Virus record (IMG/VR): IMGVR_UViG_3300050343_000150
Coordinates: 1 to 64,000 of that record
Strand: one strand, 5' to 3'
Origin: a virus
Length of the DNA stretch: 64,000 bases
The first letter of the stretch is position 1, and each line of letters begins with the position of its first letter. The translations under genes and the position numbers were made by a program. Of the stretch, positions 3,496 to 61,583 are shown one piece after another. The notes below the pieces were generated by a model. That model ran no database searches and was not told the origin of the DNA. It was given only the letters and a program-made list of their open reading frames with translations.

Positions 3496-3507
3496 GGAAG
3501 TGAAATT

Positions 3508-4921
3508 ATGAGTGGATATATTAAAACAATGAAAGATTTAGAAGCAGCAACATACGGATATGGCGGAACAGGAAGCGGCAATGCCTTGCTTAAAGCAGGT
3601 GGAGTTGTAGGTGGTTTCGGTACTCCTCACGATACTAGTGCTAATGCATTTACGGGTGCAGCAGGTCTAGGTGATTTGTACAACCTACTATATGGACAGA
3701 AAGTTTGGTCAATGTATTAAACCAAGAAGTAAACCCTCTAGCAATGCTTGCTAAGAGACCATACACATCTAGTGGATGGAGAGTTCTGAAATCACGACCT
3801 ATTGGTGGTAGTGACGCAGCATTCGGTACAGGTACTAATGCAGTTACCGCTAGTATTTCATCAGCAGATGCAGCAACTCCTAGAGCAGACCAAATTGGTG
3901 GTGTTGGAGAAAACGCAACATTAGGTGGTGCAGATGGTTTCAGAGCAATTGCTCCTGAATATACTAAACTATATGTTAGCCCTAAGACTATTGCACATCT
4001 ATTCGAGTTCTCAGAACTTGGAATGGAAATGGCTGCAATAGATGATGGTGTTGGTGATATTCGTGCTATTGTTAGAGAAGACATGGGTAAACTACACGCA
4101 GAAGTTCAGAGCAAAATGTTAGTTATGCCTCTTGAGAAGTATACTCGAGAACGGTACTACAGGTATTGAGAAGAACTACACTTCACTGATGAAGATAGTT
4201 TCATCTGCTGCTGAAATTGGCAATGTATGCAAGAAGATAACGTCTTCCTAACACAAGAAAACGATGGTACATTCAGCACAACTTGCTGATGCTACAACTA
4301 TCTTTGGTTCAACTAGAACTGTTACTGTTAACACATCAGGAAGCAGTGGAGCATTACCTACACAGGTGTACCATCTTTCTTAGATGCAGAAGTTGATTTC
4401 GGAGCAGGTTATACCTATCAGCTGAATGTAGAGTTCTAACACTAAGCCTACTTAATGATATGATTAGGAAGAATCCGTACAAAACGGTGGAAACCCTAAA
4501 GTTATCTTACAGGATACGATACCATACAGAAAATCTCTGACTTACTACAAGCACAAGAGAGATTTATGGATAGGAAAGAAATCGTTCCTTCCCATAATGG
4601 TGTTCGTGGTGTTAAGGGTCAAGAAGTTGGTTTCAGAGTTGCAACATACTATGACATACCAATCATCCCTGCTAAAGATATGCCGTCAACAGGTAAGTAC
4701 ACATGTAACAGAACCGTATCAGTGATATATTAGTTCTAGATACAGACCACCTGTGGCTATCTGTAATGAAACCTACACAATACTTCGAAGATGGTATTAC
4801 TAGTGGAAACCCATTCGGTGTTGGTAAACTTGGAAACCAAGGTATGTACCGCACTATGGGTGAAACATGCTGTTCTTTCTTCAAGGGACAAGGTAAGATT
4901 ACTAACCTAAAGAGTGCTTAA
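3508..4921 (+). CDS. Major capsid protein, HK97-fold (frameshifted)
   Basis: Start ATG at 3508. The first 70 codons are Gly/Ala-rich; a shift near 3,715 joins them to LNQEVNPLAMLAKRPYTSSGW and then a Gly/Ser/Ala-rich stretch. The C-terminal half is recoverable only by hopping frames: GIEKNYTSLMKIVSSAAEIGN near 4,160, LTLSLLNDMIRKNPY near 4,438, VGFRVATYYDIPIIPAKDMP near 4,630, VMKPTQYFEDGI near 4,765, and the end KGQGKITNLKSA. The stitched length of about 470 residues and the place after the prohead protease fit a HK97-fold major capsid protein. At least six single-base breaks make this the worst-read gene of the window. I assign it mainly from gene order and overall character; no short diagnostic motif exists for this family. 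Confidence 0.75.
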
Positions 4922-11621: not shown

Positions 11622-13148
11622 ATGGTAAGTAATGAAGTATTTGTAGGTGCTAATGCACAAGTTGGAATCGCTCCTGAAGTTGACATGTTTTTGAATGCAA
11701 TGGTAAGAACTAGCGATACTGTGTTGACACTACATTCATCTGCTAGTGATGTATATTTATTAGTTGAAGGGCTATATGTAGGATGTACTATCAAACTTAC
11801 TGCCGATGGAAGTACAGCAAGTCCTACTTACTACACTATTACCGCTAATACCACAACTACAATTACAGTAGATTCAACAATTGTACCGTCTAGTGGTGCT
11901 ATTGATGGTACAATATTATCGTTTGGTGCGCCTTGCTACGGGCCTAAAAACGGTACTGCTGGAACTATTCTTTCAGATAATTGGGTTGGGTTATTGAATA
12001 CATTTACCCCACCTAATGTAGAAGTAGAAATGAAACAACTTAATCTTGCTGCTGCTGGTGGAAGAAATTTTGATTTTCAATATAAAGGAGCAGAAACCGT
12101 TAGTGGCGGTTCTTTAGAATTATCATTAAATAACGGTTCGTGGTTATATTATGCTTTAGGTAAAATAACTAGTTTGTCAGAAGATGGTGCAGATACTGCT
12201 GTGGCAGGAACAAATGCAAAAAACGTTATGGCATATAATACGTCTAACAAAAATATAGTACGTTCTATTGGGAATAACTTGTATCCGGAATTTGCCGAGG
12301 GTGCAAACGAAGCAGCAGAAAATACTGTCAATATTTTACCAACTGGTACTAAATTTACATATACTTTTGGTGAAGCGGATGACGACGTATTGCCATCATT
12401 TGCACTAGATGTAGCATACCGCAAAGGAGGCCATAGTTCGACTACAACTTTAGATGCACTGACTCCTCATGAAAATATGTATTCTAGAATTTTTACAGGG
12501 TGTCAAGTCAATTCGCTAACTCTTAATTTTGAAGAAGGCCAAGAACTTACATCATCTGTTGAGTTAGTTACACGTAGAGCGTTTGACGCACCTAATGGAT
12601 ATCTACCACTACGCGGCAAAAACACTCTTGCTGCTACTACTAATACTAGTGCAACTGAGGCTGGTCTGATTAATTTTAGTGCAACTGATGCTGATAACTA
12701 TCCTTTCTTATTCTCCGATGGAAGCATCACACTATTTGGACAAACTGTTGCTAGAGTAAAAAGTGGTTCTATTACTATTAGTAATAACTTAACTCCACAG
12801 CGATTTATTGGTAATTACAATAGACAAATAGTATCTGCACATTTACCAGCACAGAGAACATATGAAATCTCATTAACTATGTTAATCACAGACACTAAAC
12901 TATGGGACGAACTTAGAAAAGATGCAGAGTCAACAGGTAGTCTAAAAGTAGAGTTTACAAAATCCGGAGGAGAAAAAATATCTCTTGAGTTTGCTGACTA
13001 TCTAATTAATTCAGTAACTATTCCTTTCCCCGAAGATAAGGGCGCGGTTGAAGCCGAAGTAACAGCACAGGCTAGAACATTAACTGCTGCTTCATATATA
13101 GGTAAATGGGCTATCCCAACTTTAGGCGGAACAGCAACAGGTAATTAG
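11622..13148 (+). CDS. Major tail tube protein
   Basis: It has 508 residues, preceded by GGGTGAAAAA. It is beta-rich and Ser/Thr/Asn-rich. Features expected of tube proteins are present: MYSRIFTGCQVNSLTLNFEEG followed by a strand pair (QELTSSVELVTRRAF), and later SDGSITLFGQTVARVKSGSIT with the C-terminal ISLTMLITDTKLWDELRKD. It is longer than most tube subunits; an extra Ig-like or decoration domain in the N-terminal third (about residues 25-110) may account for that. A hairpin follows the gene. Confidence 0.72.
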   Translation: MVSNEVFVGANAQVGIAPEVDMFLNAMVRTSDTVLTLHSSASDVYLLVEGLYVGCTIKLTADGSTASPTYYTITANTTTTITVDSTIVPSSGAIDGTILSFGAPCYGPKNGTAGTILSDNWVGLLNTFTPPNVEVEMKQLNLAAAGGRNFDFQYKGAETVSGGSLELSLNNGSWLYYALGKITSLSEDGADTAVAGTNAKNVMAYNTSNKNIVRSIGNNLYPEFAEGANEAAENTVNILPTGTKFTYTFGEADDDVLPSFALDVAYRKGGHSSTTTLDALTPHENMYSRIFTGCQVNSLTLNFEEGQELTSSVELVTRRAFDAPNGYLPLRGKNTLAATTNTSATEAGLINFSATDADNYPFLFSDGSITLFGQTVARVKSGSITISNNLTPQRFIGNYNRQIVSAHLPAQRTYEISLTMLITDTKLWDELRKDAESTGSLKVEFTKSGGEKISLEFADYLINSVTIPFPEDKGAVEAEVTAQARTLTAASYIGKWAIPTLGGTATGN

Positions 13149-13186: not shown

Positions 13187-13235
13187 ATTCCACTAACACG
13201 TTTGTTTGTTAGTATATAGTTAGGTGGATAGAAAA

Positions 13236-13604
13236 ATGATAGAAAGAAAAATTGTAAGTGATAAGAATGCGCTGTTCGCAAGAGCAGCAACCGAATGCCA
13301 TCAAATTAGGGTATCCCCTGATTCTGATGAATACCTCCAAGTATGGATTAAAGAACCAACTTGGTTACAGGTAGAACAGGCGTTATCGTCTGTAATGGAT
13401 ATGGATTCCCAAGGTCAAACTATGGGCATCAATCTAAACAAAATGTACCGTTACATGGTTGAGAACTTTGTAGAAAAGACTGAACCACATCTAAGTGCTA
13501 CTGAACTTATTCGATTAAATCCCTATATTGGTGCGCAACTAAAAGAAATACTCCCTAACCCATTCGTGGATGTTATGGGGGATGATATGGGAAACGAAAA
13601 CTAA
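13236..13604 (+). CDS. Tail assembly chaperone, short form (gpG-like)
   Basis: I choose ATG 13236, which has GGTGG about seven bases upstream, over an upstream GTG. The product has about 122 residues: an N-terminal strand region (SPDSDEYLQVWIKEPTWLQVEQAL) and a helical C-terminal half. The size, the position between tube and tape measure, and the -1 slippery heptamer near its end (GGGAAAC, 13589-13595) match lambda gpG and its many analogues. Family role: it binds the tape measure and recruits tube subunits. Confidence 0.75.
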   Translation: MIERKIVSDKNALFARAATECHQIRVSPDSDEYLQVWIKEPTWLQVEQALSSVMDMDSQGQTMGINLNKMYRYMVENFVEKTEPHLSATELIRLNPYIGAQLKEILPNPFVDVMGDDMGNEN

Positions 13605-13807
13605 TTCGGAGAGCATTAAAAGGAGGAAAGGTTGAATCGGCAATAGGTATGAAAATTATGCTTTATACTTATTGTACTACGTTCTCAATTAATCCTTCGG
13701 AGGCATACGAAACACCAGCATCGCTGATAAAAGAAATGTTAGAAATACATGGAGAAGTAAAGAGACTGGAATCGGAGGCAATAAATAAAGCAAAAAGTAG
13801 CACGTGA
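13236..13807 (+). CDS. Tail assembly chaperone, -1 frameshift form (gpGT-like)
   Basis: The zero frame reads ATG GGA AAC across 13587-13595; slipping back one base gives GGG AAA CGA. The -1 frame then stays open for 70 codons to TGA at 13805-13807, six bases before the tape measure ATG. The added segment contains VESAIGMKIMLYTYCTTF, then PSEAYETPASLIKEMLEIHGE, and is helical, like lambda T. The joined product has about 190 residues. A purine-rich GGGGGATGAT just upstream of the slip site could act as a stimulatory Shine-Dalgarno-like element. The extension has no good start codon and ribosome site of its own at its beginning, supporting a frameshift product. Confidence 0.78.
13589..13595 (+). 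promoter_or_regulatory. Programmed -1 ribosomal frameshift slippery site
   Basis: GGGAAAC lies in the exact X XXY YYZ phase (atG GGA AAC) near the 3' end of the short chaperone gene. The downstream -1 frame is open for 70 codons and the zero frame ends nine bases later. It closely matches the GGGAAAG site of lambda G-T. Confidence 0.8.
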
Positions 13808-13812
13808 TTATA

Positions 13813-15822
13813 ATGGCTGAAGATATTGACGACATGTTAGACAAGATAAGAGGGTCTTTCAATGATGTCGATACTCAAATTATCAATGGCGCAAAAAATA
13901 TGCGTGCCATGCAAAGTCAAATTAGTAAAACAAATAATATTCTAAAATCTGATGGATGGCAAATATTTTCTAGATTCATTTCAGGTTCAGGACTTTGGCA
14001 AATACAAAACAAAGTACGTGCTAGTATAATGCTAGTAGAAGGTATGATGAGTGCCGAAGAAAGACGTAGAAAAAAACAGGCAGAAGAATTGAAAACTCTT
14101 GCTGAAATTGCTAAATCTTCTGAAATAGTAAGAGAGATGAACGATAAAATTACTACCGCAATTAGAGGAACTGTTGCCGAAAGGGAAGCAGTTTCAGAAC
14201 AGTTGAAAAAAGAATCAGAAATTTATGCTGGTTTATTATTCAAATATGGAGACGCAACTGTTGCATTAAAAGCAATGCAAGACCAGTTATCTTACCAAGT
14301 TAAAAATGCAGATAAGTTAGAAAAAGCCGCAAATAGACGAGCAGCAGCAGAAAAAACAGGATTAATACGTGGGTCTAAAACCTTAGAGTTGGCTAATAAT
14401 ATATCAGATGCAATGGAATCAAAAGTGGAATCTATAAAGAAAGAAATTCCTTTTATGAGAGTTCTCAATACTGCTGGAGCGAGGTCTTTAGCAATGGAAG
14501 AAAAACTTGCAAAACTGAAAAGTGATTTACCTTTTAACTATTCTAATAAAATTGGTACAGCAATGAGTGCTGATGGTAGAGAAAGGTTGACAGGACCAAA
14601 AGTAAGAGGTAAAGGTAGCGACAAGGGTAAAATGGTTCAAAGATTTAACATTGGACAGAGATTCAATAAAAACCTAATAAAACAGGTTAAAGATATTCAG
14701 AAATTAGAAAAGAAAGCATCAAAAATTCGAAGTAAAGGAATTAAAAGAGCAGCAAGAATCGAAAAATGGGAAAAATCTTGGGTAGGTAGACCACTGCTAA
14801 ATATATGGAGACTTACTAAAAGAATGCTTGGCGGTTTACTTAAACTACTAATGACATTTTTGAAACTATCTGCTGTATTTTTATTAGTAATATTAGGTTT
14901 AGCACTATTGGCTTCATTACTAAAAGAAACTAAAGGACAATTGATTGAAGGATTTGAGGCTATGAAGCAAACGTTCTCTTTTGGTTTAGGTATAATTGGT
15001 AGTGGTCTAGGTAATTTAATAACGAGTGTTACTATGTTATGGGATGCATTACAAAGCGGAGAAATTGTAAATGCTTTACAAGCAGGTGGAGGAATACTAT
15101 ATTCAGTTGTCGAAATATTAAGTGGAATCATCGTTGCAACTATTGGAGCATTATTAGTTGGTATTGGGACATATTTGATGGGAGTATGGAAAATGGCAGG
15201 TGCGGAACTCACTAATACTAGAGAAAAATTCGTTGCTGGCTTTTTCAATGTAATAAGAGTAGTAGCAGGAATTGTAGCAGGAATTGCTTTCGTGGCGGCG
15301 TTAATATTTGGAATGCCAGCGATAATTGTTGGAGGAATTGCTTTAGCATTATTTATGGCTGCTACATTCGCATTAAAACACATTACCCCAATTACTAATT
15401 TCTTAGGTTCGATATATGATTTCTTTTTGGGCATTGCTGAATTCTTTGAGTTAGACAAACTTGCCAGTGCAATTGCTGACGCAGTAAGAGAAGCAGTACC
15501 TGACCCTAAGGGAACTGCCAAAGCAATTGGTGGAAGAATAAGAGGAATTGTAGGATTAGCCGAAGGTGGAAGAATAAGTCAAGGTGGACTCGCAGTTGTC
15601 GGAGAAAAAGGACCGGAATTAGTTACATTACCTAGAGGCGCGCAAGTACATTCTAATTCCCAATCTAGAGCAATGGCTTCTACTGTAACTAATAATATTA
15701 CAGTTCAGGTTACAGGAAGAGTAGGTGCTAACGATGCTGAAATTAGAGATATAGCACAAAAGGTATCTAGAGAAATAAACTCTCGAATGAATAGAACCTC
15801 AACAACGGCGGTGAACTTTTAA
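13813..15822 (+). CDS. Tape measure protein
   Basis: It starts at ATG 13813 (about 669 residues); a GTG nine bases upstream is less likely. The N-terminal 330 residues are charged, Ala/Lys/Glu-rich coiled coil. A hydrophobic middle section (about 345-540) has several membrane-like helices (LLMTFLKLSAVFLLVILGLALL and others). The end carries the phage tape-measure signature GGLAVVGEKGPELVTLPRG followed by a Thr/Asn-rich tail. Known role: it sets tail length and is ejected with DNA. At this size a tail of roughly 100 nm would be expected from the usual length rule, which is inference. Its stop overlaps the next ATG. Confidence 0.88.
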   Translation: MAEDIDDMLDKIRGSFNDVDTQIINGAKNMRAMQSQISKTNNILKSDGWQIFSRFISGSGLWQIQNKVRASIMLVEGMMSAEERRRKKQAEELKTLAEIAKSSEIVREMNDKITTAIRGTVAEREAVSEQLKKESEIYAGLLFKYGDATVALKAMQDQLSYQVKNADKLEKAANRRAAAEKTGLIRGSKTLELANNISDAMESKVESIKKEIPFMRVLNTAGARSLAMEEKLAKLKSDLPFNYSNKIGTAMSADGRERLTGPKVRGKGSDKGKMVQRFNIGQRFNKNLIKQVKDIQKLEKKASKIRSKGIKRAARIEKWEKSWVGRPLLNIWRLTKRMLGGLLKLLMTFLKLSAVFLLVILGLALLASLLKETKGQLIEGFEAMKQTFSFGLGIIGSGLGNLITSVTMLWDALQSGEIVNALQAGGGILYSVVEILSGIIVATIGALLVGIGTYLMGVWKMAGAELTNTREKFVAGFFNVIRVVAGIVAGIAFVAALIFGMPAIIVGGIALALFMAATFALKHITPITNFLGSIYDFFLGIAEFFELDKLASAIADAVREAVPDPKGTAKAIGGRIRGIVGLAEGGRISQGGLAVVGEKGPELVTLPRGAQVHSNSQSRAMASTVTNNITVQVTGRVGANDAEIRDIAQKVSREINSRMNRTSTTAVNF

Positions 15823-35900: not shown

Positions 35901-38900
35901 TTATCCCAAACTTCTAGTGGGTTGGCATTATCACACTTAGGTATAGAAAGTCTTTCTGACCCTAATGCTGATAGGATTCTAATTTGGGATGATTCAGCAG
36001 GGGCTATTGCATTTGCTACACCAAACAGTAACATTTCAATTGATGGTACAAATATTAACACTACTAACACACAACTTTCTACTGAGCAGGTGCAGGATAT
36101 AGTAGGTGCAATGTTAGTAGGTACTGAAACTAGAATTGGTGTAACCTATGATGATACAAACGGCAGGATTAATTTCGTAGTAGATGACATGACGGCAAAC
36201 ACCCAATTGACGTTGCTTGACCAAGACAATATGAGTTCGAACAGTGCTACCGCCGCAGCAAGTCAACAATCTATTAAGGCATATGTTGATGCAGAGATAG
36301 CAGGACTTGTTGATTCGTCTCCTAGTGCATTAAATACCCTAAACGAATTAGCGGCGGCTCTTGGAGATGATGCTTCATTTTCAACTACTACGGCTACTTC
36401 TTTAGGAAATAGATTGAGAGTAGATGTAAATAACCAAGGTTTAAACTCAACTCAACAAGGAAATGCACTAACAAATCTAGGAATAACTGCCTCACTTGCT
36501 GAGATTAATATTCTAGATGGTGGATTAGCAGCATCTAACATTACTGAAATATCTAATTTGACAGCAGCAGAAGGAGAGCAATTAGAAAATATTGGTAGCA
36601 CAACAATCTCCGCAACACAATGGGGTTATCTCGGTGGTTTAACTGCGGCAAAAGTAATAGATTGGTCGGTATCACAAACATTTGATGATATTCATCCAAA
36701 TAATCAACACTCAGCAGGTACTAACCTCACATTAAGCGGTACTACTCTTAATGTTGATGATGCTTTCTTAGTCAATAATGCTAACGATACTACAACGGGT
36801 ACTATTACTGCGGCTGGTTTTACAACAGCAGGGATAGTTGATGGTGTTAATTTCAAAATAAATGGCGGTCAAGGTTCTGACGGTCAAGTTCTAACTTCAA
36901 CTGGTTCAGGAGTTGCTTGGGAAGATGCCGCAAGTGGTGGTGATTCAAATGCAGGTGGTGTTAATGGTTCAGCAGGTGCGCCTACATTTTCATTTGCTTC
37001 TGATACTAATACAGGAATGTATAGATTAACAGGTGATACTTTAGCATTCTCAGTTGGTGGTTCTAATGCTATGTATATGCAACCATCTAAGGTTGAAGCG
37101 AATAAAAGATTTGAAATTATTGCAGGTTCTAATTCTGCTCCGGGTTTGTCATTAGCAGGTGATGATAATACAGGAATATACCGATATGCAGAAAATCAAA
37201 TAGGATTCACAACAGACGGAACGGCTCAACTATTGATTAAAGATGGTGCAATAGAACCTGTTACTGATAATGATATAGATTTAGGAACATCCTCTCTAAA
37301 GTTCAAAAACTCATACTTTGGGTTAGTAGATGCTGAAAACTTCAAAGTAAATGGAGGGCAAGGTAATGACGGCCAAATCCTAACTTCAACAGGTAGTGGT
37401 GTTGCATGGGAAAATGCCGCAGTTGGTGGTATAGCAAGTTTAGCCGCAGATGACACGCCACAGTTAGGTGGAGATTTAGATGTTAATGGAAATAGTATTG
37501 TTTCAACTTCAAACACTGCAATAAATATTACACCAAATGGAACAGGAGATATACAACTTAATGCTGATACTATTAGAGTAGGAGATTCTAATGCAGATGT
37601 TACAATTGCACCTAATATTAGCAGTACAACTGCTAAACTTCAATTTCAATCAGATGGAGATACATTACTTAGAACAGCAAGTGGTACAGGAAATATGTAT
37701 CTTAATGCTAATTCATTAATGTCAATGCAAGCAACAACTTTTAGATTTGGTACTAGCGGGGGTAATCCAACATTAACTACATTAGGAACAAGTGATTTAA
37801 CTCTTAATACAAATAGCGGAACAAACTCCGGTTCTATTGTAATTGCAGATGGTGCTAATAGTGATATTAGTATTACGCCAAATGGAACAGGTCAAGTAAA
37901 CTTAGGTAACTTTCAATTTGATGTAGACCAAACAGTAGGTTCAGGCCAAGATAATTATGTATTAACTTACGACCATGCTAATACACAAATTAGTTTAGAA
38001 GCAGCAGGTGGTGGTGGTGCTTCTGATATTGGCGCACTAGATGATGTATTGATGGATGCTACTAATTTCACTAATTCACTTTTAATTCAAACCAACAGCG
38101 ATACATCCGCACCTACAACGGGTACACTAAGTAGTGCTAATGAAAATATAGGAATAGGTAGAGATGTATTCAAGGTCTTAACAAGTGGTTCACAAAACGT
38201 ATCAATGGGGAGTTACACATTAGATGCAGTTACAACAGGTAGTAACAATACCATCATCGGTCATAATGCGGGAACTAGAATTGAAGATGACTCAGAAAAT
38301 ACATACATCGGTCAGGGTGCAGGTGCTAATTCAATAGGCAGTTTCAACGTAGCATTAGGTTCAAGTACGATGACAGGTAGCAGTTCAACACTTCATACTG
38401 GTAGTCATAACGTAGCACTAGGTCGTGGCGCGATGACTAAAGTTCAAGGAGATGCGGCAGGTAACGTAGCTGTATAACACAACAACAGGTGGTTACAACA
38501 TTGGTATAGGTCAAAATGCTTTAGAAAGAAATACTACTGAAGGTAATCAGATTGCCATTGGTTCATCCGCTATGGGTGGTGCATATAATCAAGCGGCGAC
38601 AGGTGCATACAATCTTGCTATTGGGAATCAAGCCTTGAGATATGGCGCACAGGACAATGGAAACTTTAACATTGGAATAGGCTATAAAGCACTTTATGGC
38701 TCTAATGGTAATAGTAGTGCTGCTAATTATAATATAGCAATCGGTTATGAAGCGTTAGAGGCAAATACAACCGGAGATAGTAACGTAGCAGTAGGAACAC
38801 AAGCGTTAGAAGCAAACACAACAGGTACAAGAAATCTCGCAATAGGTTATCGTGCCTTAGATGCCGCAGATACAGAAAACGATAACATAGCAATAGGTTA

Positions 38901-41018
38901 TGATGCTTTAGGTGGTTCAGTAGCAGGTGCAGAATACACAGTAGCAATTGGGAATTACACGCTTGATGCTTTAACATCGGGAGATAACAACACAGCAGTA
39001 GGTTATAATTCTGCAACAGCATTAATCGAAGGAAATCATAACACGGCAATAGGTTCTTACTCTTACTTTAGAGCAACAGATGGAACATATAATTGTGTTA
39101 TAGGACAAAACTCAGGTGGAGGTTTAAGGTCGGGTAGTTATAACATAGTAACAGGCTTTAATACAATGGTCAAATAAATAATGACGGAGACTACAACGTA
39201 GCAATAGGCACACACTCTATGAATGCCGCAACAGGTAATGACGTTAATTATAACACAGCAATAGGCACAAGTTCATTACAAAGTATTACATCAGGCGCGA
39301 AGAACATAGCATTAGGACAAACTGCCGGAAATAATATCACTAGCGGAGATTTTAACGTAGTAATTGGTGCGGCTGATGTAGCAAGTGCAACAGGTGATAG
39401 TCAGTTATCAATAAGTTCTGGTGATGGTGGTGTTACTTGGATAACAGGTGCTTCAACAGGTGCAGTAGATATTCCCGGTTCTTTAACAGTAGCGGGTTCA
39501 GCAGTTGGTGGTGCTTCTGACCTCAATGGTTTAACGGATGTAATTAGTAATATTACTAACTTTACAGACAGTATGCTAATTTCTACTGATAATGCTGCAC
39601 CTCCACATGGCACACTAAGTAGTGCCAATGACAATTTAGGGATAGGTAAAGATGCACTTAGAACATTAACAAGCGGTACAAAAAACGTAGTTATTGGTAA
39701 CTATGCTGGAGATGCTTTGACAACTAGTAGGGAAGTTGTGTTGATTGGATATAATGCAGGTTCGTCAATAACAGGAAGTAAACACGATTCAGTAGTAATT
39801 GGTTCTAATGCGCTGTGTGAAGCAGCAGACCCAAGTAACACAGTAGCAATAGGACAAAGTGCAGGTCAATATGCTGAGGGCATTCAAAATGTAATGGTTG
39901 GAGTAAGTGCAGGTAAATACTGGCAAAATACCGGCCTTAATTCTCAAAAGAATGTATTTATTGGTAGTAGTGCTGGAAATAGAGGAACAGTTAATGGTGA
40001 ACAAACATGGGTTACTGTTGTTGGCGCAGATGCCGGTAGTAGAACAGCGATAGGGTCTTTTTCAACAATTATAGGTGGTGGTTCAGGGCTATGGTCTCCC
40101 GGACAAAGTAATACATTTCTTGGTCAGTATGCAGGTCAAGGAAATGCTAACGTAACTACATCCTCTAACAATAATATAGCAATTGGTAAACAGGCCTTGT
40201 ATGGTCATCAAATGACATCTTCAGGTAATAACGTAGCAATTGGGCCTTCAACGTTGTATAATACTACAACAGGTTCTTTGAATATTGCTCTTGGTAATAG
40301 TGCCTTAAATGATGTAACATCAGGCGGCAACAACATAGGTATAGGATTCGGTGCGGGGGATTTAATAACAACTGCTGATAAAAACATTACAATTGGTTAT
40401 GATGCTGGAAATAATATTACAACAGGTTCTAACAACGTAGTTATTGGTGGTGCTGATGCGCCTTCTGCAACAGGTAATGACCAATTAGTTATCGCATCCG
40501 GTGATGGTTCACCTACATGGTTAACAGGTAATTCGTCAGGAGTTGTTGACTTTCCCAATGGAACAACAGGTACAGGTTCTTTCTACATTACAGCAGAAGA
40601 AAGTAATTGGCAATTAAATGTAGGTGAGTCAAATGGTTTCCATTGGTCTTTTGGTAACGGTGCTGATATAGGAGATGCACCTTCTAGTAACGCAAAGAAC
40701 GAAGGTATTGCACTACCTGTTGATTGTACACTAAAGTTCTTACATTTAAACTGTGCAAATGACGGTAATGAAACCGCAGGTAACAGTGCAACTGTTCAGA
40801 TATACAAAGCAACTTCGGCCACTGCTACTCAATCGGCAGTTGCTAATACTGGAATAACTGCTACTGTTGCGACAAATGGACACGGTGTATCTGCTACTGG
40901 TGATTATGACGTTGATTTTAACAAGGGAGACATTATTCTTTTCCGTTCAACTACGGCTAATCAGTCAGGTATATATGTCGGAAGAGGAACAATATCAGCA
41001 TATTTCGTAGAGAGGTGA
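32997..41018 (+). CDS. Giant tail fibre 2 with YadA-like head repeats (two frameshifts)
   Basis: Three open segments (32997-38477, 38572-39177, 39219-41018) read as one protein of about 2,670 residues if a base is corrected near 38,470 and another near 39,172; the repeat consensus continues across both breaks. Two LLDEDN/LNELAAALGDD modules lie near 33,855 and 36,208. From about 34,410, and again 38,130-40,500, there are dozens of GxNNxAIGxxAL repeats, the left-handed parallel beta-roll repeat of YadA-type trimeric adhesin heads. The C-terminal 130 residues (NWQLNVGESNGFHWSF to GIYVGRGTISAYFVER) form a separate beta-rich tip domain. It starts at the base shared with the stop of fibre 1. Inferred role: host adhesion. 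Confidence 0.78.
33855..34165 (+). repeat. Fibre module copy 3
   Basis: This is the first copy in the second fibre gene; LLDEDN, LNELAAALGDD, NRLRIDVSNQGLN and LAEINILDDG are all present. It is close in sequence to copy 4. Confidence 0.75.
34410..35200 (+). repeat. YadA-like head repeat block A
   Basis: In-frame repeats of about 14-24 residues carry the consensus N-x-A/I-G-x-x-A-L/G (for example NIAIGSKSLGG, NIGIGKSSLYN, NIAIGNNALKT). It ends in NIVIGAADVPSATGNHQLSIS, which recurs at the end of the other blocks. Confidence 0.7.
36208..36520 (+). repeat. Fibre module copy 4
   Basis: LLDQDN, ASQQSIKAYVD, LNELAAALGDD, NRLRVDVNNQGLN and LAEINILDGG occur in order. Copies 3 and 4 share the run FSTTTATSLGNRLR. 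Confidence 0.75.
38130..39440 (+). repeat. YadA-like head repeat block B
   Basis: This is the second beta-roll block (NIGIGQNALERN, NIAIGYEALEA, NLAIGYRALDA). Both apparent frameshifts of the fibre gene fall inside it. It ends with FNVVIGAADVASATGDSQLSIS, matching the end of block A. Confidence 0.7.
39640..40500 (+). repeat. YadA-like head repeat block C
   Basis: This is the third beta-roll block (NVVIGNYAGDAL, NIAIGKQALYG, NIALGNSALND). It closes with NVVIGGADAPSATGNDQLVIAS, the same cap as blocks A and B. Confidence 0.7.
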
Positions 41019-53728: not shown

Positions 53729-54664
53729 CTAAAATAACTCTATCATTAAATCATCTGTCCTATCATCCAAGATGCCAAGCACTTTTGGAGTCATATTATT
53801 ACTCCTCCATTCAGCCTCCCCGATAACGAAGCAATTTGAACTTCTTGGCGGATTGCATGTCTGTTTTTATAACAACATCATGTAAATTAATACATATAGT
53901 CTTCATATCAACGGAATCGTAAATCAATTTATGCACCTTCTCTAAAGCATTTTCATAGTTATTTTCATTTATCATTTTAATATTTCAGAGTATACGGTTC
54001 TAAATTTTTGTCTATTTGACTATTGAGAGAGCTTCTTACTGTTGGATGCAGCCTGTAATTCAGTCAGCCCTCGTCTCATGTCACCCATGCAAATCTATAA
54101 TAAACCTTTCTAAATCATCTTCGGGAATATGTGCATTTATTTCTTCTTTTCCAAAATTTCGTTAGAAATATCTAATGCATAGTTCTTTTATTCAATCTTT
54201 AAAATTATAGTTAGCACATCTTGATTGTAAAGGGTGTAATAATTTTATGTCTATCATTACAGGTAATGATGAACCTACAATTATCTGCATACCTTTCCAT
54301 AATTCTCTTCAATGCATTTTGTGCATCTTTAGTCATACCATCCATCTCATCTAATAAGAATAATCTTAAATGGAACATCACCTATCTTTTAGTAGAAGCT
54401 ATTTCTTTGATTTGGTTTCTTACTGTTTCTAACCTTCCTATCATCAGAAGCATTAATCTCAAAGAAGTTATTTTCTTTGTGTTCCTTTAATAAGTCATTT
54501 GCTAGTGCTATACCTGCCGCAGTTTTACCTACTCCGGCTATACCGAATAACAATACATTGGGCATGTTATTATTCTCTACCCAACTTTCAGCGTCAATTG
54601 TGAAAGCATATTGTCCTACTACATCTGCTAACTTAGTTGGCCTGTATTTCTCTGTCCATAACAT
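53729..54664 (-). CDS. Clamp loader small subunit, RFC-S (frameshifted)
   Basis: It starts at MLWTEKYRPTKL; Walker A is GIAGVGKTAA and INASDD is the usual RFC box. From about 54,420 the frame breaks repeatedly, but the family motifs go on: ILLDEMDGMT (Walker B), NALKRIMERY, and FIITCN (sensor 1) near 54,230-54,390, then TPLQSRC. The end reads IGEAEWRS to TDDLMIELF before TAG 53729. The stitched length of about 311 residues is normal for RFC small subunits. It loads PCNA. Confidence 0.85.
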
Positions 54665-55143
54665 TATACCACTACCCTGAACCATGTTGGGGTTTCTGTT
54701 TTCCAAGTTGCAATGTGAGATTTTTCTATCATGTAGTAGTCTCGATATGCCTTAACAGCAGTAGTATCTCTACAATAATCGGGCATTGCTTGCGCGAATG
54801 GTGTTAGTCCTATGTCCGGTAGTACGGAAAGAAGACTATCCCAAACTGGATTGTATTCTTTAATTACCAGTTCACACTTGTGTATCTTATTATATCTCTT
54901 GGTGTACTCATGACACAATGCAATTGCATGTGTTTTAAGCCATTCAAAATTCTGCTTGGATTCTCTAGCCCAAATAGTACAGGGATGATTTAACATTACA
55001 GGTTTGTAAGGACTATCAAATCCTAAGTGGTCTGCAATAGTTGACATCATCTGTAAACTTTCTGTGGGCATTTTGACTGCGTGTTTATCTAACACATACG
55101 TTGCTGCTATTTTCGGGTTTTCATCTAATACAAATATATTCAT
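54664..55143 (-). CDS. Pyr_excise-family protein (pyrimidine-dimer glycosylase-like)
   Basis: It has 159 residues. MNIFVLDENPKIAATYVLDKHAVKMPTESLQM and its later boxes HPCTIWARESKQNFEWL, EYTKRY, PFAQAMP and AYRDYY are conserved in a widely distributed phage and algal-virus family (PF03013-like) that includes T4 endonuclease V relatives. Catalytic activity cannot be judged from the sequence. The stop overlaps the RFC start. Inferred role: repair of UV damage in surface waters. Confidence 0.65.
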   Translation of the reverse strand: MNIFVLDENPKIAATYVLDKHAVKMPTESLQMMSTIADHLGFDSPYKPVMLNHPCTIWARESKQNFEWLKTHAIALCHEYTKRYNKIHKCELVIKEYNPVWDSLLSVLPDIGLTPFAQAMPDYCRDTTAVKAYRDYYMIEKSHIATWKTETPTWFRVVV

Positions 55144-59387: not shown

Positions 59388-59447
59388 TCAGTTAAAGATT
59401 AAACCGAATTCAACTAATGTTGTTTGTCTACTGTTTTCTATATTCAT
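59388..59447 (-). CDS. 19-residue coupled peptide after the JAMM gene
   Basis: The ATG overlaps the JAMM stop (TAATG) and is preceded by GGAGG. The product is MNIENSRQTTLVEFGLIFN. The strong ribosome site is the only evidence for translation. Confidence 0.25.
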   Translation of the reverse strand: MNIENSRQTTLVEFGLIFN

Positions 59448-59992
59448 TATTCTTCCTCCAATGCTTTTTCTGCTGCTTCAACCCATGCCGGTTTCTTAGA
59501 ACCTTCTTTTTGATAAATAGCATAGTTTACTTTCTTTGCAATTTCTGTTGCTGTATCATATGCAATATATTGGTTATCACCTAATACAGTTGCACTTAAC
59601 ATTACAGATTTCCATGTATGTATAGTGTTCCAATCTGTTCCGCTAAAGAATGCTTGACCAAAAGGGTGTGTGTGTATCCAACATTTGATTGGTAATTTCA
59701 TACCACCTAGTTGTTCTTCTTGGTCCTTGAAACTAACGAAACCAAACGTCCCTACACTAATGTATAAATCATCTTTGCTATCTACAATAACTTGTACTTC
59801 TCTAGGAGAATCAAATGCATTCAATGACATGTCCCAAATAACAGAATAAAATGCTTCTGTTGCTGCATTAGGATATGGATAACTAAACTGTATTTGTTGA
59901 AATACTTGTCTAATATTATCCTGCCATTTCTCATCCTTAATTTCAATTTTATTTTCTATCCAATCACTATCTTCTGTTTTTATTTCATTCAT
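59447..59992 (-). CDS. JAMM/JAB-family metalloprotease (isopeptidase-like)
   Basis: It has 181 residues. The complete JAMM metal site is present: H107-T-H109, seven residues, S117, two residues, D120 (HTHPFGQAFFSGTD), with E46 in a helix (ATEAFYSVIWD) as the likely catalytic Glu. Strands VQVIVDSKDDLYISVGTFGF and the C-terminal helices complete the fold. JAMM enzymes remove ubiquitin-like proteins or mature their C-termini. An E1-like gene lies 1 kb upstream in the same operon, separated by small zinc proteins, suggesting one pathway. It is not fused to a tail-type NlpC domain, so a tail role is unlikely. Confidence 0.82.
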   Translation of the reverse strand: MNEIKTEDSDWIENKIEIKDEKWQDNIRQVFQQIQFSYPYPNAATEAFYSVIWDMSLNAFDSPREVQVIVDSKDDLYISVGTFGFVSFKDQEEQLGGMKLPIKCWIHTHPFGQAFFSGTDWNTIHTWKSVMLSATVLGDNQYIAYDTATEIAKKVNYAIYQKEGSKKPAWVEAAEKALEEE

Positions 59993-60763: not shown

Positions 60764-60990
60764 TCTCCCTTCTCCTTGTAGGCAGGATGTGTCTTCGGCA
60801 ACCTGTGCAGTCTTCTCACAATCATATTGTTTACTAAAGCAGCAGCAGATTCTGCACCGTCATTAAATCTCTTTAACGCGACTGCATCTCCGGTCGGACA
60901 CATCTCTTGTTCCAGTAAAGTTAGGTCTATCTCATTCATGATAAATTTCAATACTTCATACTCGACATGAATTTTAGATGCTGCTCTCAT
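60760..60990 (-). CDS. Small helical protein next to the E1-like gene
   Basis: It has 76 residues, mostly helical (VLKFIMNEIDLTLLEQEM, ESAAALVNNMIVRRLHRL). It overlaps the E1-like gene by four bases and the zinc protein by four. No E2-like Cys/His motif can be seen; it has a single Cys in EMCPTGDA. No family is recognised. Confidence 0.5.
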   Translation of the reverse strand: MRAASKIHVEYEVLKFIMNEIDLTLLEQEMCPTGDAVALKRFNDGAESAAALVNNMIVRRLHRLPKTHPAYKEKGE

Positions 60991-61583
60991 AGGTTCACCA
61001 TCTTCATATCTATAACATCATCATTATCATTAAACCAACGTTGAATCCACTGAACACCCATACCTGCTATTACCATATTCATACAGTTAATATCTTCCGC
61101 ACTACCATCCCATGATTGTGCTTGACATGAAAAAGAACCTTCTTCTCCTGCTAAAAGAGTATTCATTAAGTCCGGATTTATTTTGTATGATACTAATGCA
61201 GCGTTCCTTCCAGTGGAACGTAGGTCTAACCACTTTAATTTTGTATCATTCCCAAAACCCTGTTTGTATAATAAACGTCTTACTGCTAGGTTATCTGCAC
61301 AACAGATAACTAAATCATATCCTTTAAGTTGTTTTTCTACAAGTACATTAAATGGTTGTGCGTTAATACCTTGGATACATTCTACTTTCTTTTCACCTAT
61401 ATCTAATTCATCAAATGCTTGATAACCAAGATTCTTTCTATCCACAACATCATCGTCAAATACAGTAATGTCATACAGATGAGTATTTGGAGTGTTATTC
61501 CTGTGTGCTTGATTCATTCTCTTGAGAAACTGTACTAGATAACTACCAATTCCTCCTGCTCCTACAATCATAACTCTTCTCAT
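60987..61583 (-). CDS. E1/ThiF-like adenylating enzyme
   Basis: It has 198 residues. The Rossmann nucleotide loop is VGAGGIGSYL (7-16); TVFDDDVVDRKNLGYQAF matches the E1 box D-x-D-x-V-x-x-x-N-L-x-x-Q, with Tyr where most E1s have Arg. A conserved Lys follows in GEKKVECI, and CCADNLAVRR matches the D-N-x-x-x-R box. The protein is short: only the adenylation domain. Cys residues near 150 and 165 (SFSCQAQ, INCMN) could serve as thiol acceptors. It resembles PRTRC-type ThiF proteins in its NxGxQ-F-x-x-x-D-x-G run. With JAMM in the operon, a ubiquitin-like or sulfur-carrier pathway is suggested; no E2 or clear modifier is visible. Confidence 0.78.
   Translation of the reverse strand: MRRVMIVGAGGIGSYLVQFLKRMNQAHRNNTPNTHLYDITVFDDDVVDRKNLGYQAFDELDIGEKKVECIQGINAQPFNVLVEKQLKGYDLVICCADNLAVRRLLYKQGFGNDTKLKWLDLRSTGRNAALVSYKINPDLMNTLLAGEEGSFSCQAQSWDGSAEDINCMNMVIAGMGVQWIQRWFNDNDDVIDMKMVNL

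Follow-up and report, generated by a model that had tools for sequence, protein, structure and literature searches.

A magrovirus-like virus, which on its gene content infects archaea, probably makes both a gpG and a gpGT tail assembly chaperone from overlapping reading frames by a lambda-type -1 frameshift; we put the probability of this reading at about 0.92. As for the mechanism, a lambda-type -1 frameshift appears almost certain in view of the conservation of the slip site, the synonymous constraint on it, the synteny of the locus and the profile matches of its products to tail assembly chaperones. The locus is found in IMG/VR record IMGVR_UViG_3300050343_000150, of which we analyzed positions 1-64,000 (referred to as the window in the following).

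Two overlapping open reading frames (ORFs), G and T, are located between the tail tube and tape measure genes on the plus strand of the window. G (13236-13604) starts at ATG 13236, with a GTG at 13224 as an alternative, and encodes a gpG-like tail assembly chaperone of 122 residues, which matches PHROG 25860 (E=3.2e-5) and is homologous to the G protein of haloviruses (hhalign E=5.7e-8, probability 94.7). Its 3' end reads ATG GGA AAC GAA AAC TAA and contains the in-phase slippery heptamer G_GGA_AAC (13589-13595); the stop codon (TAA, 13602-13604) begins nine bases after the start of the A-site codon AAC, which leaves a gap of six bases between heptamer and stop. The -1 frame contains no stop codon between 13586 and a TGA at 13805-13807. 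Its gpT-like segment (13595-13807) extends for 70 codons past the heptamer, and this part of the fusion matches the tail assembly chaperone family PHROG 9001 (E=1.6e-5). A -1 shift would thus join G and T to a predicted gpGT fusion of 190 residues (13236-13807). A previous, sequence-only reading of this DNA had noted that GGGAAAC stands in exact phase nine bases before the stop and that a 70-codon open -1 frame ends right before the tape measure gene, and we confirm both. The upstream neighbor is a tail tube gene (11622-13148; Pfam Phage_tube_2, E=7.5e-22), for which a tblastn search of the phage collection yielded only haloarchaeal tailed viruses as relatives; downstream, the tape measure gene (13813-15822; PHROG 19914, E=2.7e-7; PHROG 8892, E=1.6e-6) begins with an ATG at 13813. 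Among the 138 ORFs of at least 60 residues on both strands of the window, G is the only one with a slippery heptamer in phase within its final 45 nt and, in addition, 40 or more codons of -1 extension.

The affiliation of the virus can be judged from the genome as a whole. The record comprises 91,747 bases at 35% GC, with its structural and replication modules on opposite strands (plus and minus), and in size, AT-richness and opposed modules it agrees with the Magrovirales, whose genomes are about 90-100 kb long, AT-rich and organized in structural and replication modules of opposite direction (PMC10768690). Furthermore, the window encodes a TFB, an RFC small subunit whose closest relatives are archaeal, an ERCC4-type nuclease, a PolB and an ATP-dependent ligase, i.e. 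the gene set described for magroviruses of Poseidoniales (PMC10160649, PMC10768690). The phage collection contained no relatives of the GT fusion, and the genome collection contained none of G and thus offered no link to a host genome. This leaves gene content as the basis for the assignment, according to which the virus appears to be magrovirus-like and its hosts would be marine archaea (Poseidoniales), which are abundant. The minus strand of the window also encodes a protein with a JAMM-like motif (HTHPFGQAFFSGTD) near a ThiF/E1-like protein (59447-59992 and 60987-61583). The best NCBIfam match of the latter, PRTRC system ThiF, lies below the cut-off; the two may constitute a ubiquitin-like conjugation or counter-defence pair.

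To place the locus in a wider context, we collected relatives in searches with G alone. These yielded 340 loci, of which 217 are distinct in this region, and the frame of T was assigned with a T profile at each of the latter. The T domain is found in the -1 frame in 206 of them, in the +1/-2 frame in ten and in no frame in one (L095). All 206 loci of the first group share the layout of the window and possess a canonical in-phase heptamer, which starts 7-31 nt before the G stop and is AAAAAAC in 120, GGGAAAC in 49, AAAAAAA in 11, AAAAAAG in ten, GGGAAAA in eight, GGGAAAG in four, GGGAAAT in three and AAAAAAT in one. The sequence-only reading had proposed conservation of the heptamer and the -1 frame in relatives as a check, and both are kept in 206 of the 217 loci. 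It had also held that relatives with T as a separate gene, or with a slippery site that is not conserved, would speak against it; the heptamer has been maintained in the -1 loci, where no start codon recurs consistently for T and the positions of other ATGs vary from locus to locus.

The slip site is conserved beyond what the protein requires. In a FastTree tree of G and T, built with the slip region left out, the GGG and AAA types interchange several times while the site stays slippery. The codon preceding the GGG sites encodes Met, Thr, Glu, Lys, Leu, Ala or Ser and that preceding the AAA sites Glu, Gln, Ala, Gly, Thr or Ser, but the last base is always the required one, G in the former case and A in the latter. 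At the three slip codons, the ratio of observed to expected synonymous change is 0.015, 0.000 and 0.063, compared with a mean of 0.98 and a minimum of 0.061 in the body of G. T, in turn, evolves as a protein, with 58% of substitutions falling on third positions of the T frame. Two records of this collection are unusual. L095 (2800-2960) has kept the GGGAAAC site and has lost most of the T segment to an internal deletion, in what could be an assembly error or a broken gene in a single locus. IMGVR_UViG_3300021958_000021, with 184,733 bases twice as long as usual for magroviruses, carries two different chaperone loci (L162 and L216) about 91 kb apart and probably represents two virus genomes joined in assembly.

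In the mechanism that we infer, in its course as well as in its efficiency, most ribosomes would read G and terminate at TAA 13602, releasing the 122-residue product. A minority would pause owing to pairing between UGGGGGAUGAU in the mRNA and the 3' end of the 16S rRNA. In these ribosomes, tRNA(Gly), bound to GGA in the P site, and tRNA(Asn), bound to AAC in the A site, would then move back by one base to GGG AAA. The slipped ribosomes would then carry on in the T frame and produce the 190-residue gpGT. By analogy with lambda, gpG may coat the tape measure protein, while gpGT may recruit the tail tube protein.

Other explanations for the overlapping frames have to be weighed against this mechanism. 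One is that T is a separate gene, expressed by re-initiation or from an internal start, and that the overlap is incidental. An in-frame ATG with an upstream AAGGAGG is indeed found about 18 codons into T in the window, an ATG overlaps the G stop in one sub-lineage, and the genome of the halovirus HHTV-2 is annotated with two separate genes. However, ATG is absent from the first 25 T codons in 71 of the 206 loci, and ATG, GTG and TTG are all absent there in 14. Moreover, a separate start leaves unexplained the near-zero synonymous change at the slip codons and the enforced third base before them, and no stop interrupts the T frame across the slip site. We therefore consider separate initiation improbable and reject it for the -1 loci. 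It is even less probable that the frame is changed by RNA polymerase, slipping on a homopolymer, rather than by the ribosome: this would suit the AAA-type sites with their runs of six to seven A, but GGGAAAC contains no run longer than three, and yet the two site types interchange on the tree. Likewise, a Shine-Dalgarno (SD)-like element at fixed spacing and a stem-loop, both described below, would be expected to act on ribosomes.

The two remaining explanations, artefact and chance, are the least probable of all. An indel introduced into a single G-T gene by sequencing or assembly was considered owing to the broken genes in the same contig. In the window, the genes for the MCP (3496-4921), the RFC small subunit (54211-54751) and a fibre (38477-41018) are split over several frames, as if by indel errors; the family B polymerase of the contig is also in pieces, and separate genes for the N- and C-terminal parts of PolB are normal in magroviruses (PMC10768690). 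Given these broken ORFs, a frame change seen in this contig alone would be weak evidence, and relatives are needed to judge it. They rule the artefact out, with the same organization in 206 distinct loci from many samples and a conserved slip site; a second contig, L002, is identical to the window in the G/GT gene. As for chance, GGGAAAC on its own is not rare in the window (5 occurrences versus 4.3 expected), and 31 of the ORFs extend for 60 codons or more in the -1 frame; chance would here mean a common heptamer near a stop, followed by a spurious open frame. Such a coincidence is refuted by the conservation of the site, and the third-position bias in the T frame and the match of T to PHROG 9001 also speak against it.

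If ribosomes slip at the heptamer, they are probably aided by a sequence just upstream of it. The sequence-only reading had pointed to a purine-rich stretch as a possible stimulator; the element is indeed conserved beyond synonymous expectation, but it is best read as an SD-like, i.e. anti-SD-pairing, candidate stimulator. In the window, GGGGGATGAT is found at 13577-13586, within the SD-like element TGGGGGATGAT (13576-13586), whose GGGGG is separated from the heptamer by 7 nt and which would form a duplex of -11.5 kcal/mol with the anti-SD AUCACCUCCU. We take the latter to be the usual archaeal 16S 3' end, and the start sites of the virus itself support this choice, with a mean anti-SD duplex energy of -7.2 kcal/mol compared to -2.6 kcal/mol at random places. 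Over 137 distinct upstream sequences, the mean duplex energy before the slip site is -9.9 kcal/mol, as opposed to -6.0 kcal/mol in synonymous shuffles and -2.4 kcal/mol elsewhere in G. Of 151 distinct upstream sequences, 117 have a spacing of 7 nt. At the core of the element, Glu and Gly are consistently encoded by the rare codons GAG (106 of 111 Glu codons) and GGG (84 of 94 Gly codons).

Many relatives also appear to use a structure downstream of the site. In 70 of them, the RNA folds strongly directly after the heptamer (mean z -3.1, compared with -0.1 for a control in T). RNAalifold found no consensus structure on MAFFT alignments, and the stem-loop was tested by named pairs instead. In 36 diverse AAA-type loci, a helix of 14 pairs has 71% of its cells paired, compared with 42-55% when slid, a covariation score of 0.40, compared with 0.16-0.20, and 66 double changes, compared with 24 in shuffles. 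In the clade of the window, this proximal stem was not found. A distal hairpin about 44 nt downstream is strong in single folds there, but its covariation is not above that of shuffles, and we do not claim it as a stimulator. Consequently, the signal of the window is best described as a heptamer with a putative SD-like stimulator.

The A-site codon deserves separate mention. It is AAC in 169 of the 206 loci, and its C opens the next T codon after the shift, which usually encodes Arg. Where it does, 94% of the codons are CGN, whereas CGN makes up 29% of the Arg codons elsewhere in G and T; this suggests that T codon usage is not what maintains the C, and a zero-frame preference for Asn could also account for it. 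In E. coli, AAC in the A site is a poor shifter, less readily tolerated than by eukaryotic ribosomes (PMC4066793). Its strong use here raises the question of whether archaeal ribosomes behave like eukaryotic ones at the A site.

A different solution is seen in the ten distinct loci with T in the -2/+1 frame (L263, L267, L278, L288, L290, L293, L294, L329, L331 and L341). Their DNA is 72-99% identical among themselves, and their T is intact and evolves as a protein, with third positions accounting for 62% of substitutions. GAAAAAAAGG, read as GAA AAA AAG in the zero frame, is invariant directly before T, as is GAAAAAAAGGATGATT at the G stop region, and a -1 slip at A_AAA_AAG runs into a stop a few codons on. 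In a reduced set of eight sequences, all eight amino-acid-conserved codons among the last nine are identical throughout, compared with 11 of 31 comparable two-fold codons elsewhere. The SD-like element has retained its distance of 7 nt, and 92% of the cells of the stem are paired, compared with 33-57% when slid. GAAAAAAAGG allows perfect tandem -2 re-pairing, from AAA-AAG to AAA-AAA, and we regard the chances as about even that this lineage has switched the frame of T and that archaeal ribosomes perform -2 frameshifting there, as a counterpart to phage Mu. These sites would also be compatible with +1 slippage, polymerase slippage on A7 or re-initiation at the ATG that overlaps the stop codon of G. 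On the tree, the ten loci are placed among -1 loci, and the switch may have had several origins or reversals.

The sequence-only reading's claim of a lambda-type gpG/gpGT pair in an archaeal virus is thus strongly supported, but the virus is not the first archaeal one for which a -1 frameshift in this gene pair has been predicted. Its further statement that the frameshift functions on archaeal ribosomes goes beyond what a sequence can demonstrate. The literature that we searched, which is incomplete in its coverage, yielded no published description of frameshifting in magroviruses: a tail assembly chaperone is labeled in the ICTV profile of one magrovirus family, and frameshifting is mentioned neither there nor in the magrovirus survey. 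What is new here is the depth of the comparative evidence, the candidate stimulators, the AAC bias in the A site and the ten-locus lineage with T in the -2/+1 frame. With hundreds of natural variants of one site and mapped candidate stimulators in this family, the rules of archaeal slippage, such as the A-site codon preference, SD stimulation, the stem-loop and the choice between -1 and -2, become testable with short reporter cassettes. For annotation, ORF-based calling of magrovirus genes misses T.

The closest known counterparts are found in haloviruses. According to reviews and GenBank records, from which we take the site claims of 2013, a -1 g/gt frameshift was predicted in that year in HVTV-1 and HCTV-1/2/5; a prediction for Hardycor1 followed later (PMC5009743, PMC8211752, PMC7911831). 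HCTV-1 is reported with G_GGA_AAC, a heptamer identical to that of the window (PMC5009743). As of a 2021 review, the only archaeal -1 frameshift with experimental work is that of the Saccharolobus fucosidase, and the viral cases are predictions (PMC8211752). The GenBank records of HVTV-1, HCTV-2 and HCTV-5 contain a joined chaperone CDS in the same order as in the window (tail tube, G/GT, tape measure), with an in-phase heptamer at the joint that is A_AAA_AAC in HCTV-2 and G_GGA_AAG in HCTV-5 and HVTV-1. G is homologous and the tail tubes are the nearest relatives, whereas T matches its haloviral counterpart weakly (hhalign E=2.4e-4, probability 43.8). In the haloviruses, T forms a longer domain and the G stop lies 7 or 34 nt after the start of the heptamer, compared with 13 nt in the window. 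The strong SD-like element and, in many lineages, the covarying stem-loop are described here for the magrovirus loci alone. In HHTV-2 (L060, KC292024; 4519-5462), two separately annotated genes lie between tail tube and tape measure, but the -1 frame continues uninterrupted past the first stop. Its motif resembles that of HCTV-2 (GAG GAA AAC TGA to AAA CTG AGA), and the genome possibly contains an unannotated frameshift with an imperfect heptamer.

Chaperone pairs made by shifts other than -1 offer a comparison for the ten-locus lineage and its GAAAAAAAGG site: phage Mu uses -2, and +1 has been predicted for HSTV-2 and the HF1 group (PMC5009743, PMC8211752, PMC7911831, PMC7230728). The window itself, with its -1 shift, differs from all of these. 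In lambda, gpG and gpGT resemble the pair described here in their position between tail tube and tape measure, an X_XXY_YYZ heptamer near the end of G and a short T in the -1 frame. The lambda heptamer is G_GGA_AAG, whereas the A-site codon is mostly AAC in these loci; our comparison with lambda concerns this layout. Finally, the -1 frameshift of E. coli dnaX concerns another gene and product, and its likeness is functional only: it combines an SD-like element, a slippery heptamer and a stem-loop, as many of the relatives appear to do, while the copy in the window has support for two of these three elements.
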